Origin: Fodinibius salipaludis
Lineage (GTDB): Bacteria > Bacteroidota > Rhodothermia > Balneolales > Balneolaceae
Direction of reading: 5' to 3'
Assembly: GCF_002287075.1 (NCBI RefSeq)
Contig: NZ_NSKE01000008.1
Location: 1-64,000 of the forward strand
DNA length: 64,000 nt
Shown: positions 11,821-21,125 of the stretch, one piece after another
Layout: each line of letters begins with the position of its first letter
Numbering within the stretch: the stretch's first letter is position 1
Translations under genes and position numbers: made by a program
Notes under the pieces: generated by a model
Databases searched by the model: none
What the model was told of the DNA's origin: nothing
What the model saw: only the letters and a program-made list of their open reading frames with translations

Positions 11821-12003
11821 CCAAAGAAGCCAATTCCATCAAATGGCTTATTTTGCTATCCGATGGGTATGTTAGAGAGCATTGATTACCTTTGGCTGTC
11901 GAAAAATATAGATTGGGAGCTGTTGCATTGTCAGATTTATGACGTTGATCATTCGGACCATTTGCCAGTCGTGGCAAAGGTAGTTAGTTTATCCTACTAC
12001 TAA
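11821..12003 (+). pseudogene. Relic of a second EEP-family gene (C-terminal fragment)
   Basis: An open frame in a different phase from the upstream gene ends at TAA 12001-12003. It reads like the EEP C-terminus: CYPMGMLESIDYLWLSKN matches the TYP...RRIDYVF region of the neighbour, and DHSDHLPVVAKVV matches its YSDHLPVV end. The N-terminal two thirds, including the catalytic Glu and the GDFN motif, are absent, and there is no proper start. DNA identity to the intact copy is low, so this is an old paralogue left after deletion rather than a fresh duplication. Confidence 0.7.
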
Positions 12004-12085
12004 TTGATTTTGGTAGCAAGGGGCGTATCCCAACGGCCAATTGGCAAAGTAATTAATTTCAAATTTTGATCTAAATGAGGAGGTC

Positions 12086-13066
12086 ATGAAGCGAATCCTA
12101 ATCGTCAGCATTGCACTCTTGTGCGCAGTCCCTCTGTATGCTCAGGATGATGAAAAAGCAGGAAATCCGGTTGTTGAAGGATGGTATGCCGATCCGGAAG
12201 GAAATATATTTGGAGATCAGTATTGGATATTTCCCACGTTCTCGGCTCCATACGACGAACAGGTTTTAATGGATGCTTTCTCATCTCCAGATTTGGTAAA
12301 CTGGGAAAAACATGGGAAAATTATCGATACGGCTGCCGTAGCATGGGCCGATAGTGCGATGTGGGCTCCCTCCATCACCAAAAAAGACGGCAAATATTTT
12401 CTCTTTTTTGCCGCAAATGATATTCAGAAGGATGGGCAGGTTGGTGGAATTGGCATTGGTGTTTCAGACGATCCCGGAGGTCCGTTTAAGGATTACTTAG
12501 GTGAACCGTTGTTGAGTAAATTTCATAATGGTGCACAGCCCATCGATCAGTATATATTTGAAGATACTGATGGACAGTTTTATATGATTTACGGCGGCTG
12601 GGGGCATTGCAACATCACTAAGCTCAACGACGATTTTACCGGGTTCGAACCGTTCAAGGATGGTACGATATTTAAAGAGATTACGCCGGAAGGATATGTT
12701 GAAGGCTCGTTTATATTTATCAGGGACGGTAAATACTACTTTATGTGGTCGGAAGGTGGATGGGGTGGTCCGAATTACCGTGTGGCGTATGCCATGGCTG
12801 ATTCACCAATGGGACCGTTTGAACGGATTGGTGTGGTCTTAGAACAGGATTCATCCGTAGCAACCGGCGCAGGACATCATTCCGTGATTGAAGTCCCAAA
12901 GAAAGATGAGTGGTATATTGTTTATCACCGCCGGCCACTGGGCGAAACAGATCCCAATCATCGGGTAACTTCTATCGATAAGATGACGTTCGATGAGGAT
13001 GGATATATCGAGCCGGTCACTATCACGTTTGAGGGAGTTGAGAAGCGAAGTTTACAGAAGGATTGA
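12086..13066 (+). CDS. Secreted glycoside hydrolase family 43 enzyme
   Basis: A 326-residue single-domain five-bladed beta-propeller glycosidase, as in arabinosidases and xylosidases. A signal peptide (residues 1-20, ending LYAQ) directs export. The three GH43 acids are visible: general base Asp about 36 in WYADPEG, the pKa-setting Asp about 154 in QPIDQYIF, and the general acid Glu about 206 in YVEGSFIF. The ATG follows a strong GAGGAGG. It lies downstream of the symporter and EEP genes on the same strand, suggesting pentose-polymer use at the cell surface. No carbohydrate-binding module is attached. Confidence 0.88.
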   Translation: MKRILIVSIALLCAVPLYAQDDEKAGNPVVEGWYADPEGNIFGDQYWIFPTFSAPYDEQVLMDAFSSPDLVNWEKHGKIIDTAAVAWADSAMWAPSITKKDGKYFLFFAANDIQKDGQVGGIGIGVSDDPGGPFKDYLGEPLLSKFHNGAQPIDQYIFEDTDGQFYMIYGGWGHCNITKLNDDFTGFEPFKDGTIFKEITPEGYVEGSFIFIRDGKYYFMWSEGGWGGPNYRVAYAMADSPMGPFERIGVVLEQDSSVATGAGHHSVIEVPKKDEWYIVYHRRPLGETDPNHRVTSIDKMTFDEDGYIEPVTITFEGVEKRSLQKD

Positions 13067-13102
13067 TGATTCCAGTATTACGGATAAGTTTTCGCAGATG
13101 GC

Positions 13103-14056
13103 TCATTTGTTTTGCTGTTTTTCCTTTTCGCTCATTACCCAGTCAATAAATAAGAATTCAAGTCCGGCTGCTTCGTAGCTCTCCCAGTTCTTGATCATCT
13201 GCTGGAATTCTTCTTCGCTGGTGTTATCGGGATCACCGTCGTAGTTCAAGATAATCCACCGTCGGTGACCTTTTTCTTTGCCTTTCTTTTTGTTGCTGGG
13301 GAATACGGCATCGGGACGTTCACGGAAGAGCATCAGCTGCTGGGCCGAAGTGGGTCCCACACCACGAACGTTTGAGATCGTATCATAAAATTCATTCGGT
13401 GGACACGTTTCCAGATGGTGCAGATCCTGTTCACCGGAAAGTAAATCCTCGGCAAAACCAATAATAAATTCACCTTTTCGCTTGGTAGGGCCGGGATCGA
13501 GCTGCCGGATGCTCATAGGCGTGGCCTTAATAAGCTGATGCGGCCGCGGCCAGGCCGGAATATTTTCTGATCCGGTATTGATGAGTGAGCCATAGTTTTT
13601 GCGCACATTAAAGACCATCTTTTTGGCCGTAGGTTTATGCGAAAGTCGCATCTGGACGATGCGATTGACGGTATCCTCAAAGAGGTTAGCCCGCGCCATG
13701 CGTTTGAAACCATAATACTCTTTGAGTAGCGGGCCTAACACCGGATCGTCGGATGCCTGCTCGTAAAAAGGACGCAGATCGATGTTGGTGCCGAGGATAC
13801 GCGACAAGCTTTTATTCGCTTCTTTGATTTCGTCTTTGCTTAGCGATTCGGGACTTTCAAAGTGAAACTCGGGGTTTTCGGGATCCCCATTAAAAAAAGT
13901 AGTTATTAAAACATCACGATCATCCAGTGGAATGGGACGGGTAAACCCTTCTTCAAAAACTTTCTCGGGATCGTGTTCGTGATCAAAATACTGGTCAATA
14001 TCTAAGCATAAAAACCAGTCGTGCGGCGGGGTTGATTTAAGTGTCCAGATACTCAT
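13103..14056 (-). CDS. HhH-GPD (AlkA-like) DNA glycosylase-related protein
   Basis: A 317-residue protein resembling 3-methyladenine glycosylases. The central helical region LFEDTVNRIVQMRLSHKPTA (about 125-144) matches the GPD fold, the helix-hairpin-helix is NVRGVGPTSAQQLMLF (229-244), and WESYEAAGLEFLFIDW (291-306) matches the WrPYRS..W helix of AlkA. The segment after the HhH, where the catalytic Asp normally sits (FP.DD), reads FPSNKKKGKEKG. The usual acid therefore appears missing or displaced by a basic insert. It is the last gene of a minus-strand run that includes an exonuclease and a ligase, which favours a DNA repair role. Confidence 0.72.
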   Translation of the reverse strand: MSIWTLKSTPPHDWFLCLDIDQYFDHEHDPEKVFEEGFTRPIPLDDRDVLITTFFNGDPENPEFHFESPESLSKDEIKEANKSLSRILGTNIDLRPFYEQASDDPVLGPLLKEYYGFKRMARANLFEDTVNRIVQMRLSHKPTAKKMVFNVRKNYGSLINTGSENIPAWPRPHQLIKATPMSIRQLDPGPTKRKGEFIIGFAEDLLSGEQDLHHLETCPPNEFYDTISNVRGVGPTSAQQLMLFRERPDAVFPSNKKKGKEKGHRRWIILNYDGDPDNTSEEEFQQMIKNWESYEAAGLEFLFIDWVMSEKEKQQNK

Positions 14057-14111
14057 AGTAGTAAGTTGGGAGTTAAGAAAGTTAGACTGATATAAATTAT
14101 TTTAAATCTTC

Positions 14112-15848
14112 TCATCTGGTACTTGTTTCAGGATCTTCCTGTTTAATATAAAATGATGGATTTTTCTCTTGTTTCAACCTTTCTTTATCAATGTTCTGTT
14201 GATACATCCGCTCTACATCTTTAAGGGTGTCCGTCTTTTCCGGTGATAAATCCCGTCGTATAGCTTTAAAGCGAGGTAGTTTTAACGAATAATTTGCCTT
14301 GGTGCGTTTGTTTTTCTGGATATCATCGAATTCGATCTCAACTACAATTTCGGGAATGAGTCCTAAAGTAGGCCCGTATTTTTCGACGGTTAGATCCTTA
14401 ATGCGTTCGTTCAGGCGCTTCATTTCGTCGTCGGTGTAACGGCCGTTTGCTTTGCCAATAGGAACAAACTCTTCCTCGTACCGTTCGTCTTCTGCAACTC
14501 GGATGCCCAGCGTAAAATCAGAATAATTTCCACGACGTTTTCCGGAATCAGCATGGGCATACATCATTACCGTATCGAGGGTACCACCCGGTTTTTTAAC
14601 TTTAAGCCATGATTTGCGACGCTGACCATATTCGTAGGTACTGTCAACCTCTTTGAGTATTAATCCTTCATTACCATGGGCCAAAGCACGTTCAAATAAT
14701 TCATTGAGATGGTCACAGTCTTCGACATCAAATTGATTGGTGATCGGCAGATTATGGATTTGCGATAATTTGGTGAGCAAATTGCGACGTTCCGAGAGCT
14801 TCTTCTCGAAAATGGGATATTCGTCATGATAGAGCAGATCATAGGAGATAAATAGGACCGGATAATGTTCTATAATATCTTTGCTTGGCTTTTTACGTCC
14901 GATTCTCTTTTGAAGGAGTTGAAAGGGAAGGATCTCATTGTCTTTATACACGCAGATTTCACCGTCAAGGACGACATCGGGCAAATCCTTTGTTAAGAAA
15001 AACTGTACGATTTCGGGAAAAGAATGGGTACTGTCATTGAAGTCGCGGGAATACAATTTGACCTGTTGTCCGCTGACGTGAGCTTGGGCCCGCATGCCGT
15101 CGAACTTTTCTTCGGCTATATATCCATCTAAATTATTTATAGCACGACTTTCAATAGACGATGCCAGCATAAAGGGCAGTGGATGGAATAATCTAAAGTT
15201 TGCTTGATCCAACCTTTTCTTTTTACAGAGCACGGCCGTTTTTCCAATGCTGCCGGTAATCATGTGAGCATAGCGGACTTCATCGATTTCCTTTTGAAAA
15301 GCTTTTGCCAGTGCTGCAACCACATTTTTGGTTTCAAAGCCGATACGCAGCGATCCACGCGTCATAATTCGGATGAAGAATTTGATTTCGACCGGTGTCA
15401 TCTGTTTCCAGGCATTCCTTAGAATGTGCTGCTTATCTGCCCGTGAGGAAACGCTGTGTATTTCTTCATAAATCGATTCGATCTCTTGAAGACTTAGTTG
15501 GGCCGGTTCACGCTTTTTGTGGGCCGCTTCGATGTTGTGCATCAGCTTTTCGATAGCTTCAGAAGCACTGCCCAGGGCTGTTTTGCAAGGCTTAAATACT
15601 TTTTCGTAATCAATATCACAAAAGTCAGCGGCACAAGTTGAGTAGGTGCGACTGCCTATGGTAACCCGCTTGCCAGAAATAGATGAGAAAGCCCCTTCAC
15701 CCAGGAATTGAGCCGCAAGGTTCAGATCTTCTTCATTCCCAAGTGACTGAAAGTACTGGGAGCAATAGGAGATCTTCGCATTAGCGCTGCGCGTCTCGTT
15801 AATCTGTTGTGCAGTTTCTGCTAATTGATGGAAAGAGTGCTCAGCCAT
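14112..15848 (-). CDS. ATP-dependent DNA ligase
   Basis: Seals nicks via a lysyl-AMP intermediate. The 578 residues comprise an N-terminal DNA-binding domain (about 1-220), a nucleotidyltransferase domain (about 225-440) and an OB-fold (about 440-560). The adenylated lysine is about 248 in EEKFDGMRAQ. LYSRDF, VVLDGEICV, EGLILKEV and SWLKVKK follow as nucleotidyltransferase motifs. It starts 2 nt after the exonuclease stop, so the two are translationally coupled. The pairing of an ATP ligase with an SNM1-like exonuclease is a known bacterial repair association; the helicase and PdeM partners of the larger version are not adjacent. Confidence 0.92.
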   Translation of the reverse strand: MAEHSFHQLAETAQQINETRSANAKISYCSQYFQSLGNEEDLNLAAQFLGEGAFSSISGKRVTIGSRTYSTCAADFCDIDYEKVFKPCKTALGSASEAIEKLMHNIEAAHKKREPAQLSLQEIESIYEEIHSVSSRADKQHILRNAWKQMTPVEIKFFIRIMTRGSLRIGFETKNVVAALAKAFQKEIDEVRYAHMITGSIGKTAVLCKKKRLDQANFRLFHPLPFMLASSIESRAINNLDGYIAEEKFDGMRAQAHVSGQQVKLYSRDFNDSTHSFPEIVQFFLTKDLPDVVLDGEICVYKDNEILPFQLLQKRIGRKKPSKDIIEHYPVLFISYDLLYHDEYPIFEKKLSERRNLLTKLSQIHNLPITNQFDVEDCDHLNELFERALAHGNEGLILKEVDSTYEYGQRRKSWLKVKKPGGTLDTVMMYAHADSGKRRGNYSDFTLGIRVAEDERYEEEFVPIGKANGRYTDDEMKRLNERIKDLTVEKYGPTLGLIPEIVVEIEFDDIQKNKRTKANYSLKLPRFKAIRRDLSPEKTDTLKDVERMYQQNIDKERLKQEKNPSFYIKQEDPETSTR

Positions 15849-15850
15849 AG

Positions 15851-16834
15851 TTAATCATCTTCTTCGATTTCAATATCTAAAAATCGTGACTCGATATTTC
15901 GTTCATCCAAATAGTGTTGAACGACATCGGCATTGGGTGTATGGGTAATATGAACCATTTGAGGATTCAGTTCTTCACATAGACGAATGAGTTCAAAAAA
16001 ATCGAGATGGTCGGACAGGGGAATGAGTTTATTTATTGTTAGTTGTTTCCCCGTAGCCTCTCTCGTGGCCCAGCCTGAGCAGTAGGCGATACGTTTGTTT
16101 GTGATGTTGGAAGCGAAGCCATTATTTAGGGCAGAACGTGTTGTAATCAAGATTTTACCTTTGCAGGTATCGCGGTCGTAGGGTTCATAATTCCCCAGAC
16201 TGATACCAGCTTCTTCGTAGACATCACAAAGTTTATACCCTGCGCTATGGATTTGTACTTGGTGTCCCAGCGGGGCCAGCAGATACATCACTTCTTGTGC
16301 TTTGCCTAAATTATAGGCTAAAAATATTGGTGTGTATCCATTTTTAAGGGAGTTCGAGGCGAATGAACGAATTTCCTGTCCGAGACTTTCGTGGGAATCC
16401 CATTTGTAAATAGGCAGCGCAAAGGTAGCTTCGGTGATAAAATGGTCAACCTGATCGGGTATGGAAAATCCTTCTGAAGCGGGAGACGGTGGTGTGCGGT
16501 AGTCACCGGTATAGAGAACAGAGCCCTCATCAGATTCTACATACACCATCGCTGAGCCGAGAATATGTCCCGCAGGATAGAGCGTGATTCGTGCTTTGTC
16601 GGTTTCTATTGAATCACCAAAATCCAAGACGGTGGCATCGCCTTTAAAGCCGCGACGCTGCATCAGCTTTAGCGTATTGAGCGTGCAATAGACGCTGCTT
16701 TGACGGTTACGCGGCATGTGATCGGCGTGGGCATGTGAGATGAAAGTGTACCGGGTATTGGTGCCGCTGTAGTCAAACCCGATATTCAGTTCCGGGAGCA
16801 GAATACCGTGATATCCTGCCTTAGTGATATTCAT
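15851..16834 (-). CDS. Ligase-associated beta-CASP DNA exonuclease
   Basis: A 327-residue metallo-beta-lactamase/beta-CASP nuclease of the SNM1/Artemis type. The zinc motif HAHADH is at about 34-39, LYPAGHILGSAMV carries the next metal His, and LYTGDYR the bridging Asp. HITHT near the C-terminus gives the last His region. Its ATG overlaps the stop of the upstream membrane gene (ATGA) and the ligase follows after 2 nt. In this family the nuclease is thought to prepare ends for the neighbouring ligase; that role is inferred here from context. Confidence 0.88.
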   Translation of the reverse strand: MNITKAGYHGILLPELNIGFDYSGTNTRYTFISHAHADHMPRNRQSSVYCTLNTLKLMQRRGFKGDATVLDFGDSIETDKARITLYPAGHILGSAMVYVESDEGSVLYTGDYRTPPSPASEGFSIPDQVDHFITEATFALPIYKWDSHESLGQEIRSFASNSLKNGYTPIFLAYNLGKAQEVMYLLAPLGHQVQIHSAGYKLCDVYEEAGISLGNYEPYDRDTCKGKILITTRSALNNGFASNITNKRIAYCSGWATREATGKQLTINKLIPLSDHLDFFELIRLCEELNPQMVHITHTPNADVVQHYLDERNIESRFLDIEIEEDD

Positions 16835-17268
16835 GTAGGTGTTTGACGTGTTATTACAAAGTATGCTAAGAGCAATAACGCAAATCCCACTGCCACCATT
16901 ATGGCACCGCTTCTTTTAATGATATCGGGCAGTTGCTTAGTGCTTTTGATGAGCGTTCGACTTTGCTCCCATCGCACCAGTTGAAGTCCAGCTAAATAGA
17001 CAACCAATAAGCTCCAAATGGTAAAGAGAAGTTCAATCCATGAGAAAGGAGTAAATGAAAGTATGAGCCCGGGAAGAGTGAAAAGGAAAAGATATTTTAA
17101 GATCCTGATGAACAGCGTGGGTGGTTTTTTATGATCCGCTTTATCGATTAAATAGTTAGCAATCTGATCTTTTTTAAGGATGATATATCCCCCGGTTCCA
17201 ATCAAACAAATAGCCAGTATGGAGTAGTAAAGGGTAAACCATTTTGTTGAAAAGCTTTCCAAATCCAT
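16831..17268 (-). CDS. Membrane protein of unknown function, four TM helices
   Basis: A 145-residue protein with hydrophobic stretches at about 12-31, 56-73, 76-96 and 118-138. No family is recognised. It lies between terC (10-nt gap) and the exonuclease (4-nt ATGA overlap), so it belongs to the same transcript. Its link to DNA repair is positional only. Confidence 0.7.
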   Translation of the reverse strand: MDLESFSTKWFTLYYSILAICLIGTGGYIILKKDQIANYLIDKADHKKPPTLFIRILKYLFLFTLPGLILSFTPFSWIELLFTIWSLLVVYLAGLQLVRWEQSRTLIKSTKQLPDIIKRSGAIMVAVGFALLLLAYFVITRQTPT

Positions 17269-17278
17269 AAATGTAGAA

Positions 17279-18226
17279 TTATTCGTCTGGGAGATTCTCG
17301 GCTTCTACTGGATCCTCTTCTTTAGGATATAATATGGAAGCAATAATTGAGAGGGCAAGAGCACCGGCAATAAATGCTAATGCGTAAGGAGTGGGTATGT
17401 GATAAAAGTTTGAAAGCAGCATTTTAACTCCGACGAAAACAAGAATGAGCGAAAGTCCATAGTGCAGATAGTGGAAAAGACGCATGATGCCAGCGACGGC
17501 AAAGTAGAGTGCTCGAAGTCCCAATATGGCAAAAGCGTTGGAGCTATAGATAATAAATTCATCGCGCGTTATGGCTAAGATAGCGGGGATGGAGTCAAGG
17601 GCAAAAACGAGATCGGTAGTTTCTATGACAACTAAAACAATGAATAGGGGCGTGGCAATAAGCCGACCCATTTTACGGATGAAAAATTTAGACCCATGAT
17701 AATTCTTGGTCGTAGGAAAAAAGCGGCGAACTAAAATTAATACGGGATTTCGTTCAGGATGGACTTCTTTGTCTTTTTCCATAGCCAGTTTAATACCGGT
17801 AAAAATGAGAAATCCCCCAAAGACGTAAATGATCCAGTGGAAACGTTCTATGAGTGCCACCCCTGTAAAGATAAAGATCAGGCGCATAACAAGGGCTCCG
17901 AAAATCCCCCAGAAAAGTACCTTGTGTTGGTATTCATCCGGAACTTTGAAGTAGGTAAAGACCAACAGGAAGACGAAAATATTGTCAACGCTGAGCGATT
18001 TTTCGATCAGGTAGCCGGTATAGTAATCAAGGGCCGTCTGGGATCCCATATAGTAATAGACCCCAATGCCAAAAATAAGTGCCAGAACAATCCAAACGCC
18101 CGTCCAGTAGAGGGCTTCTTTAATGCTGACTGCCTCATCCTCTTTATGGAGTACAACGAGGTCGACAATGAGCATCGCAATAATGAACACATTGAATATC
18201 GACCACAGCAGAATGGAATGATCCAA
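17279..18226 (-). CDS. TerC/Alx family membrane protein
   Basis: A 315-residue integral membrane protein with about nine helices. The family has been linked to tellurium resistance and to manganese efflux. Acidic residues inside helices (LIVDLVVLH, SLSVDNIFVFLLVF, VIETTDLVFALDSIPA) are the conserved TerC signature and probably bind metal. The start is TTG, as no ATG gives the first helix. A short hairpin lies about 14 nt upstream. The gene heads the run leading to the exonuclease and ligase and follows oxyR by 84 nt. Confidence 0.88.
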   Translation of the reverse strand: MDHSILLWSIFNVFIIAMLIVDLVVLHKEDEAVSIKEALYWTGVWIVLALIFGIGVYYYMGSQTALDYYTGYLIEKSLSVDNIFVFLLVFTYFKVPDEYQHKVLFWGIFGALVMRLIFIFTGVALIERFHWIIYVFGGFLIFTGIKLAMEKDKEVHPERNPVLILVRRFFPTTKNYHGSKFFIRKMGRLIATPLFIVLVVIETTDLVFALDSIPAILAITRDEFIIYSSNAFAILGLRALYFAVAGIMRLFHYLHYGLSLILVFVGVKMLLSNFYHIPTPYALAFIAGALALSIIASILYPKEEDPVEAENLPDE

Positions 18227-18239
18227 ACCAGTTATCTAT

Positions 18240-18268
18240 TTTTGAGGTTAAAAAAATAAGCCTCAAAA
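18240..18268 (-). promoter_or_regulatory. 8-bp hairpin immediately upstream of terC
   Basis: TTTTGAGG (18240-18247) and CCTCAAAA (18261-18268) form a perfect stem with a 13-nt AT loop between the oxyR stop and the terC TTG start. No T-run follows in the minus direction, so it is a poor terminator. It could instead limit access to the terC start. Confidence 0.4.
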
Positions 18269-18310
18269 GTAGGCAATATTTGACAGAATTAATAGCTGGC
18301 CAAAGACAAA

Positions 18311-19249
18311 CTATTCTACTAAAAGTCCCTCTTCCTCTTTTTTGAGTACCCCGGGTATGGACGACATTATTTCTTCTTTAAAAGCCTCAATGATATTCTT
18401 CTTGAGGTATTCGCGTCCATATACGATACGTACTTTTCGGCGCGGAACAGGATCATTAAATTCACGTAAATGTGCTTTTGCACACCGTTCATTAATCTGA
18501 TTTTTGGCAAGGTAAGGCAAAAGCGTCATTCCAAAGTTTTGTTCAACCAACTGCTTCAGCGTTTCCAGGTTTCCGCTTTCGAACTCAATTTTGGGATTAT
18601 CAAGATTGTTTTTTCTGAATTTCTTGCACAGCTTAACAGTTTGGTCGCGAAAGCAATGTCCCTCATTGAGTAGCCAAAGATTGGTTACTTCCAGATCATC
18701 TACCGAAAGACGATCTTTTTTGGCAAGCGGATGATCCTCGGACACATAGCCCAAAAAGGGTTCATAATACAGGTCTTCTTCAAAAATATTTCCGCGATCG
18801 GCGGGTGTGGCAATAATGCCGATATCAAGATGATCTTGGTTAAGTAGGTCGAGGAGTTCATCAGTTACCAACTCTTCGAATATGAGCCGAACATCAGGAT
18901 GTTTTTTCCGGAAGTTACGTAAAAAGAGGGGTAGCAGGTAAGGGGCAACCGTGGGAATGATTCCGATGCGAAAAGTACCTCGCAGTTCATCATCATTAAG
19001 AGCGGCGAGATCTTCAATATGTTTCGACTGTTTGATGATCTTTTTTGCCTCCGCAATAATTTTTTCGCCTATCTCAGTTGGAATGACCGGAGATTTCGAT
19101 CGATCAAAAATAGTGACCCCAAGTTCGTCTTCCAGCTTGTGAATCTGCATGCTAAGGGTCGGCTGGGTGACATATGATTTTTCTGCAGCAGTGGCAAAAT
19201 GGCGATAACGATCGACGGCAATGATATATGAAAGTTGCGTGAGAGTCAT
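18311..19249 (-). CDS. oxyR: OxyR, hydrogen-peroxide-sensing LysR regulator
   Basis: A 312-residue LysR-type activator. The N-terminal winged helix-turn-helix is clear (FATAAEKSYVTQPTLSMQIH, about 18-37), followed by the linker helix and effector domain. The redox pair is present at exactly the E. coli spacing and numbering: Cys199 in NEGHCFRDQ and Cys208 in TVKLCKK, which form the peroxide-induced disulfide in the known protein. That makes OxyR much more likely than another LysR member. It is transcribed divergently from acylphosphatase; a dyad at 19311-19332 is a candidate own operator. Confidence 0.92.
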   Translation of the reverse strand: MTLTQLSYIIAVDRYRHFATAAEKSYVTQPTLSMQIHKLEDELGVTIFDRSKSPVIPTEIGEKIIAEAKKIIKQSKHIEDLAALNDDELRGTFRIGIIPTVAPYLLPLFLRNFRKKHPDVRLIFEELVTDELLDLLNQDHLDIGIIATPADRGNIFEEDLYYEPFLGYVSEDHPLAKKDRLSVDDLEVTNLWLLNEGHCFRDQTVKLCKKFRKNNLDNPKIEFESGNLETLKQLVEQNFGMTLLPYLAKNQINERCAKAHLREFNDPVPRRKVRIVYGREYLKKNIIEAFKEEIMSSIPGVLKKEEEGLLVE

Positions 19250-19310
19250 AATAAATCTATTTCAGAGCAAAATTTGTAACAATCTGTTTGACGGAATTAT
19301 ACAAACTTTA

Positions 19311-19332
19311 GAACTTTAATTCGTGAAAGTTC
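19311..19332. promoter_or_regulatory. Candidate LysR/OxyR operator
   Basis: A perfect dyad GAACTTT (19311-19317) and AAAGTTC (19326-19332) is separated by 8 nt. It contains a T-N11-A arrangement typical of LysR boxes and lies about 60-85 nt upstream of the oxyR start. It differs from the E. coli OxyR consensus (ATAG-based), so the link to OxyR is inferred from position. Confidence 0.4.
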
Positions 19333-19420
19333 GAGATTTCCTTTCAGATTAGTACATTAGCCGTGAATCACTAAACATTTGAGAGTTAACGATTTAATAA
19401 AAAGCATAGATATAATAATT

Positions 19421-19696
19421 ATGCAACAGGCGCATGTATTTATCGAAGGACGAGTACAAGGAGTAGGATTTCGTCATTTTGCAAAAGTGAATGCCGAAGA
19501 AGTAGGGGTTTTCGGATGGGTAAAAAATCTGCCCGATGGTCGTGTAGAAGCCGTTTTTGCAGGACCAATGGATCACATCAGGGAGATGGTAAACCGTTGT
19601 GAGCAGGGGCCGGGAGCCAGCCGTGTTGATAATATTGATGTAACGGTTGAGGAAGCTGATGAGGAATACGAAGAATTTGAGGTTCGTTATCACTAA
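19421..19696 (+). CDS. acyP: Acylphosphatase
   Basis: A 91-residue enzyme hydrolysing carboxyl-phosphate bonds. The catalytic Arg about 18 lies in GRVQGVGFRHF and the catalytic Asn about 36 in GWVKNLPDG, both in the canonical positions. The ATG at 19421 is chosen because it begins the conserved domain; an upstream in-frame ATG would add 14 residues with no family match. The gene is followed after 9 nt by thpR. Confidence 0.93.
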   Translation: MQQAHVFIEGRVQGVGFRHFAKVNAEEVGVFGWVKNLPDGRVEAVFAGPMDHIREMVNRCEQGPGASRVDNIDVTVEEADEEYEEFEVRYH

Positions 19697-19705
19697 TCCT
19701 TTGCT

Positions 19706-20248
19706 ATGCGTTTATTTATCGCTATTCCCCTGCGGGAAGGAGTAAAACGAAAGTTGCTGGATTTACGGCAACCTATTGATGGTATGCAATGGCAGTCTCA
19801 AGAGCAGATGCACCTAACCCTAAAATTTGTGGGAGAGGTTGATAAAACGACTCCCAGTGAGTTGCGGGGTGAGCTGGATAACATTGTTCATCCGGCGTTT
19901 ACGATGACGATTACAGGGATTGGATATTTCCCAGAAGGTAAGCAACCCAAAGTGGTTTGGGCAGGCGTTAAAGAAAATACGACCCTTCAGGAGTTGCACC
20001 AAAAAGTGGAGGACCACTGTGAGAAAATGGGAATTGCTCCTGAAAACCGATCGTATAAACCGCACGTCACAATAGGGCGAACAAAAAACACGTCGAAACG
20101 AACGGTCACGTCATTTATTAATCAGCATAAAAAGTTTGCTATTCCGGATATCTCCGTCAGTGAATTTGTGCTTTATGAGAGTAAATTACATCCTGATGGA
20201 GCCCGCCATTATCCATTACAAACCTATTCACTGAGGTCGGATGAATAG
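19706..20248 (+). CDS. thpR: RNA 2',3'-cyclic phosphodiesterase (2H family)
   Basis: A 180-residue LigT/2H phosphoesterase that opens 2',3'-cyclic phosphates on RNA. The two catalytic HxT motifs are HLTLKFVG (His about 36) and HVTIGRTK (His about 120). The length is standard. It lies 9 nt after acylphosphatase, so the two are probably co-transcribed. Confidence 0.92.
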   Translation: MRLFIAIPLREGVKRKLLDLRQPIDGMQWQSQEQMHLTLKFVGEVDKTTPSELRGELDNIVHPAFTMTITGIGYFPEGKQPKVVWAGVKENTTLQELHQKVEDHCEKMGIAPENRSYKPHVTIGRTKNTSKRTVTSFINQHKKFAIPDISVSEFVLYESKLHPDGARHYPLQTYSLRSDE

Positions 20249-20294
20249 TTTTTGTTATCTTTTGATCAACTAATTTCCATTTACCTAATCAATT

Positions 20295-21125
20295 GTGCGA
20301 ATTGTGCAGTCATTTTTATGGATTCTCTTGAGTGTTGCTGTAGGGTACCTCTTGCTGGTTGTCTTGATGTATCAGCTACAGTCGCAGATGATTTATCATC
20401 CTCAAAAATCGATCACTTATACCCCTGAGGATGTCGGGTTGCCATATGAGGATGTTACTTTCGATACTGAGGATGGGGTGAGTCTCCACGGGTGGTATAT
20501 TTCTGGAGATGAACATGATGTAAACGTTCTTTATTTCCACGGCAATGCAGGTAATATTTCGGGACGTCTGCAAACGATTGAACTCCTGCACAATTTGGGA
20601 CTCAACGTTTTTATTTTTGATTACAGGGGATACGGCAAAAGTCAGGGAAGTCCAAGCGAGCAGGGAACGTATAAAGATGCACGGGCAGCCTGGAATTACT
20701 TGGTATCAAAAAGAGATATAGAAAACGATCAGATTGTAATTATGGGACGGTCGCTGGGTGGGGCTGTTGCATCGTGGCTTGCAGCTCAAAAACAGCCGGC
20801 CGCTACTATTTTGGAATCCACATTTACCTCGGCCGCAGATTTGGGAGCTGATTTGTATCCCTGGCTGCCGGTACGATCTATGATAAGTTATGACTATAAC
20901 ACATTGGAAAATATTAAACAGATTCGGTCACCTCTTTTTATGGCCCACAGCAAGGATGATGAAATTGTTCCGTATCATCACGGGCAAACGCTGTTGGAAG
21001 CGGCCAATGATCCCAAAACATTTGTAGAACTGCGAGGTTCGCACGGTTCCGGATTTTGGGAAACAGGCGAAAAGTACCGCACAGCACTGCAGAAATTTTT
21101 AAAAGAAAATATAACGAATCAGTGA
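20295..21125 (+). CDS. Membrane-anchored alpha/beta hydrolase (BEM46/ABHD13-like)
   Basis: A 276-residue serine hydrolase anchored by one N-terminal helix (about 5-27). The nucleophile Ser about 153 is in GRSLGG, the acid Asp about 221-222 in HSKDDEIVP, and the His about 250 in RGSHGSGF. The oxyanion motif FHGNAGN is at about 81-87. The start is GTG. The substrate is unknown; family members are usually esterases or thioesterases at the membrane. The yjbQ gene starts 1 nt after its stop. Confidence 0.85.
   Translation: MRIVQSFLWILLSVAVGYLLLVVLMYQLQSQMIYHPQKSITYTPEDVGLPYEDVTFDTEDGVSLHGWYISGDEHDVNVLYFHGNAGNISGRLQTIELLHNLGLNVFIFDYRGYGKSQGSPSEQGTYKDARAAWNYLVSKRDIENDQIVIMGRSLGGAVASWLAAQKQPAATILESTFTSAADLGADLYPWLPVRSMISYDYNTLENIKQIRSPLFMAHSKDDEIVPYHHGQTLLEAANDPKTFVELRGSHGSGFWETGEKYRTALQKFLKENITNQ

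Follow-up and report, generated by a model that had tools for sequence, protein, structure and literature searches.

A glycosylase-like protein accompanies the Exo–LigB pair across the Balneolales

Which process joins an exonuclease and an ATP-dependent ligase to a glycosylase-like protein and two membrane proteins beside oxyR? We analysed this arrangement in a 64,000-nt stretch of Fodinibius salipaludis DNA (the window), in which six minus-strand genes follow one another in the order OxyR, TerC, Mem, Exo, Lig, HhH. The five-gene run (13103–18226) starts at TerC, with 10 nt between TerC and Mem, a 4-nt ATGA overlap of Mem and Exo, 2 nt between Exo and Lig, and 55 nt between Lig and HhH; OxyR (19249–18311) ends 84 nt ahead of the TerC start at 18226. 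This layout agrees with the original prediction, which had described five genes on one strand with gaps of 55 nt or less, a single ATGA overlap and OxyR 84 nt upstream. The 19415–20248 region holds AcP, a divergent acylphosphatase gene, followed by a LigT-like phosphoesterase gene. AcP is conserved next to the cluster in other Balneolales families as well (L118, L121, L179, L181 and L183). A defence-system reading of the cluster was rejected, as none of the six proteins had a PADLOC match.

The exonuclease/ATP-ligase pair had been called a known repair couple, and this was borne out by the adjacency of the two genes and by the expected domains and motifs. Lig (14112–15848, minus strand; 578 aa) contains the Pfam domains DNA_ligase_A_N/M/C, with motif I (EKFDG) at residue 247. 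The genome yielded no other PF01068 match, and among solved structures Lig resembles archaeal and eukaryotic DNA ligases. Exo (15851–16834, minus strand) is a predicted beta-CASP/SNM1-like nuclease with the motif HAHADH at residue 34. Its best relatives among solved structures were Apollo and, close behind, DCLRE1A/SNM1A (weak similarity, E ~1e-8), which are crosslink- and end-processing SNM1 nucleases, a point in favour of a repair reading. Unlike the SNM1/Apollo/Artemis nucleases, Exo is a short bacterial form of 327 aa.

Homologues of Exo and Lig form the same tight side-by-side pair in a known cluster of LigB, an Lhr-Core helicase, MPE (PdeM) and a metallo-beta-lactamase exonuclease, as outlined in the passages of PMC10140301 and PMC7437997 that cite Ejaz and Shuman (2018). 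The corresponding NCBIfam families are TIGR04120–TIGR04123. Both proteins of the window fell under the family cut-offs, Exo with 218 bits against TIGR04122 (cut-off 325) and Lig with 311 bits against TIGR04120 (cut-off 400), and these equivalog cut-offs divide names, not functions. The helicase-bearing relative G006 (L086) scored like the Exo and Lig of the window. All Balneolales Exo proteins gave 190–231 bits to TIGR04122, whereas most of those elsewhere in the phylum gave 345–480 bits, which makes this Exo a distinct subfamily that travels with HhH. As judged from these scores, the Exo–Lig pair of Balneolales is a divergent subfamily. A second divergent Exo paralogue (253–291 bits to TIGR04122) was seen in one family of the phylum, at six loci (L167–L172, in G128, G179, G164, G247, G144 and G059). 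Five of the six had neighbours of recurrent size (~200, 315, 105, 150, 315 and 362 aa), and no ligase match was found there; these loci are possibly another undescribed cluster.

The remaining members of the known cluster were missing from the genome of the window: whole-genome searches gave no helicase (TIGR04121) over the cut-off and no match to PdeM (TIGR04123). Helicase and PdeM had been thought to be replaced here. Their absence held, but replacement did not, since the helicase is kept in 29 of the 51 HhH-bearing Balneolaceae genomes compared; HhH is therefore an addition, and the loss of helicase and PdeM is a separate event. In 58 Balneolaceae genomes the helicase was present in 34 and PdeM over the cut-off in 30. 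Many Balneolales genomes encode both, in likeness to the known cluster, some of them 4–35 kb off on the same strand, and a helicase within 40 kb of HhH was always on the same strand as HhH (16/16). HhH, Mem, TerC and OxyR are outside the described cluster. We conclude that the locus is a lineage-specific variant of the LigB/Exo/Lhr/MPE repair cluster.

HhH (13103–14056, minus strand; 317 aa) is a DNA-glycosylase-like protein. On its own it had no Pfam match, and the NCBIfam and other family scans gave a weak AlkA-type match; 30 of 35 family members matched PF00730 weakly (best E 3e-4). Searched against solved structures, a profile built from the 35 sequences recovered A. fulgidus AlkA (E 1.7e-17), 4ejy, Clostridium OGG and E. 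coli AlkA. The AF2 model (pLDDT 94, pTM 0.89) aligned over nearly its full length with E. coli AlkA (VIA-align Z 25.8) and mammalian OGG1 (Z ~22). The modelled protein is thus of the AlkA/OGG fold over its whole length, with the same domain order as the E. coli and A. fulgidus AlkA enzymes. The other HhH-GPD matches in the genome were one Nth-like and one MutY-like protein, both named from sequence, so HhH is the sole AlkA/OGG-type protein found there.

The description of this protein as atypical proved apt; the AlkA-type fold is combined with Glu261 at the catalytic Asp column. An alignment to MutY, Nth and AlkA-like relatives showed that HhH lacks the hallmark Asp and has Glu in its column in 75/75 sequences; Glu261 is assigned to the Asp site by this alignment and by a helix predicted to start at 263. 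Also unlike the AlkA/OGG proteins, HhH carries a short Lys-rich insertion (FPSNKKKG) before Glu261 and a HKPTAKKM motif, and it lacks the OGG-type lyase Lys, having Thr236 and Ser, Ala or Thr at 237 among the 75 sequences. Other residues invariant in the same set were H12, D13, H140, K141, W169, K194, G232, G234, P235, Q239, R265, W267, E295 and E300.

As read from the alignment, a Glu in place of the Asp could reduce or abolish catalysis by HhH. It may accordingly be asked whether HhH is a catalytically dead lesion sensor that recruits Exo and Lig, with the Asp-to-Glu change and the Lys-rich loop marking lost glycosylase chemistry. The exceptionless replacement of Asp, the remodelled loop ahead of it and the missing lyase Lys fit this explanation. 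The column nevertheless holds a carboxylate in every sequence and the region is highly conserved, which suits catalysis better than pure binding, and active AGOG glycosylases also have a longer linker ahead of the catalytic helix (PMC3397491). We therefore consider a dead sensor rather improbable, although it is the strongest of the alternatives.

How far the arrangement extends was examined by the gene-neighbourhood survey that had been proposed with the original prediction. Of the 58 Balneolaceae genomes, 53 had HhH, 52 had Exo and 52 had Lig. The set includes related, hence not independent, genomes, and because some are incomplete, single absences may be artefacts. Lig and HhH were within 30 kb of each other in 33 of the 36 genomes that had both on one contig, and HhH lay downstream of Lig on the same strand in all 33. 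This arrangement is far from chance. The linkage spans many genera despite varied inserted genes, and in nine genomes of several genera HhH directly adjoined Lig, within 200 nt. In Fodinibius-type genomes (loci of named organisms) the order was AcP (divergent), OxyR, TerC, Mem, Exo, Lig, HhH, and Mem-Exo-Lig-HhH was kept in other Balneolales families (L118, L120, L121, L131 and L182–L184). The gene order is thus conserved beyond the Exo–Lig pair, within Balneolaceae and in other families of the order, and not limited to the pair, the outcome that would have spoken against the prediction.

The association ends at the border of the order. In a 394-genome sample of the phylum, HhH was found in 50 of 52 Balneolales genomes, with 445–640 bits, versus 30 weak, AlkA-like matches of at most 80 bits outside Balneolales. 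By these comparisons HhH is a Balneolales-specific family. None of HhH, Mem, TerC and OxyR stood beside Exo in 12 loci from outside Balneolales, inspected for ~7 kb on each side.

Conserved order might also be ancestral synteny with no common pathway behind it; Exo–Lig would then form a unit, HhH would be an independent base-excision enzyme, and OxyR, TerC and Mem would be mere neighbours. The genes between Lig and HhH vary from genome to genome, insertions are frequent, and some lie on the opposite strand, so that a single Lig–HhH transcript is impossible in many genomes. In genera g19 and g20 HhH and Lig were widely separated or on separate contigs. Losses can be separate too: G003 and G052 have HhH but neither Exo nor Lig, and G016 has Exo/Lig but no HhH, indicating that mutual dependence is not strict. 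AcP, which has no known tie to repair, is likewise a conserved neighbour. Against synteny alone, the uniform same-strand downstream position and the close adjacency in nine genomes exceed what drift would be expected to leave, and we regard this explanation as unlikely.

Several loci deserve mention in their own right. At ten loci of several genera, a pair of genes resembling an RND efflux adaptor (~435 aa) and pump (~1038 aa), called by eye from sequence, followed Lig; the pair lay between Lig and HhH in L047, L048, L051, L052, L054, L059, L060, L063 and others. Genome G014 had broken Exo and Lig copies ~16 kb ahead of HhH (L066, G014:C5:309000-328900) and a second OxyR-TerC-Mem-Exo-Lig set on a different contig (L067, G014:C13:9500-20209). 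In L068 (G052:C3:62000-73000), OxyR-TerC-Mem-HhH was retained and Exo and Lig were gone, a natural deletion of the pair.

The genes upstream of Exo bear on whether peroxide stress controls the system. Mem (16831–17268, minus strand; 145 aa) is a predicted membrane protein whose position before Exo is conserved in other families. It had no Pfam or NCBIfam match above cut-off, and its all-helical AF2 model (pLDDT 89) resembled no PDB fold at E below 0.5; 14 columns were invariant among 13 sequences of the family. TerC (17279–18226, minus strand; 315 aa, TTG start) is a TerC/Alx family metal-homeostasis membrane protein, with 420 bits against TIGR03718 (cut-off 246.4) and a PF03741 match; unlike known TerC/Alx proteins, it adjoins repair genes and OxyR. 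OxyR (18311–19249, minus strand), a LysR-type peroxide sensor, was nearest to PRK11151 (220 bits) and matched OxyR structures (E 5e-57). Both redox cysteines, Cys199 and Cys208, are present, and OxyR itself looks functional from its residues.

An association of OxyR and TerC with the repair genes had also been claimed, and it held in part. Among 29 Balneolaceae loci with enough upstream flank (14 genera), a same-strand OxyR was upstream of Exo in 20 (11 genera); TerC and Mem were each so placed in 12 loci, from 7 and 5 genera respectively. In other Balneolales families, TerC and OxyR did not adjoin the Mem-Exo-Lig-HhH core.

Transcription signals were sought in the OxyR–TerC gap. TAnnTTTG-type promoters are known from Bacteroidetes, and an element of this form (TACTTTTG; 18264–18271, minus strand), resembling a promoter -7 element, occurred at an aligned position common to 13 genomes, here 37 nt before the TTG start, against a background in which ~5% of 150-nt stretches drawn at random from these loci contain the motif. 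TerC and the genes after it therefore probably have their own transcription start. For HhH we found no conserved promoter of its own, as only 5 of the 67 stretches upstream of it contained TAnnTTTG, close to the background. A simple sigma-70 scan gave match counts equal to those of shuffled sequences. Neither a Mn riboswitch nor any other known RNA was detected upstream of TerC by Rfam search (E up to 1, 12000–20500).

These data bear on the model first put forward, an OxyR-controlled peroxide-stress operon joining TerC manganese or metal handling to DNA end processing and sealing. OxyR with its two cysteines, upstream in most of the flank-sufficient loci, is in keeping with it. Two loci have OxyR ahead of Exo by just 48 and 140 nt, and in L077 and L105 OxyR and TerC nearly abut, so that joint transcription is likely there. 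The MPE of the known cluster is manganese-dependent (PMC7437997). Given the separate promoter-like element of TerC, the lack of TerC and OxyR beside the core in other families, the missing riboswitch match and the metalation of secreted enzymes by TerC proteins (PMC10550928), a function unrelated to DNA, this model is the least probable of the alternatives. That metal transport belongs to the repair system is a guess; co-transcription is putative, and so is any part that Mem, TerC or OxyR may play.

We favour the reading that the locus is a Balneolales form of the LigB/Exo/Lhr/MPE cluster with HhH and Mem added, in which HhH recognizes lesions, Exo trims and Lig seals; we put its probability at about one half. 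The analysis established the fold, the conserved residues, and the gene order with its taxonomic limits; we infer catalysis, an order of steps and a substrate, which may be an alkylated, oxidised or crosslinked base. HhH would bind DNA through its helix-hairpin-helix, flip the damaged base out and cleave or flag it, with Glu261 acting where such enzymes normally use a catalytic Asp. The SNM1-like Exo would then trim from a nick to beyond the lesion, the gap would be filled by a housekeeping polymerase, and Lig would seal the strand. More tentatively, HhH might be a Glu-dependent glycosylase subfamily that gives Exo/LigB its lesion recognition, the route being base excision or crosslink unhooking, possibly peroxide-controlled in Balneolaceae.

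As of 2023, neither the biological role of the LigB/Exo/Lhr/MPE cluster nor the damage that it targets was known, according to PMC10140301. That cluster was already known; what is new is the glycosylase-like HhH, with Mem, alongside Exo–Lig in Balneolales. A dedicated protein of this kind beside Exo–Lig across a whole order suggests that the target is base damage or crosslinks. HhH would also offer a test case for an HhH-GPD protein in which Glu stands where the superfamily has its hallmark Asp, and its association with Exo–Lig makes the question of which damage the Exo/LigB pathway targets a testable one.
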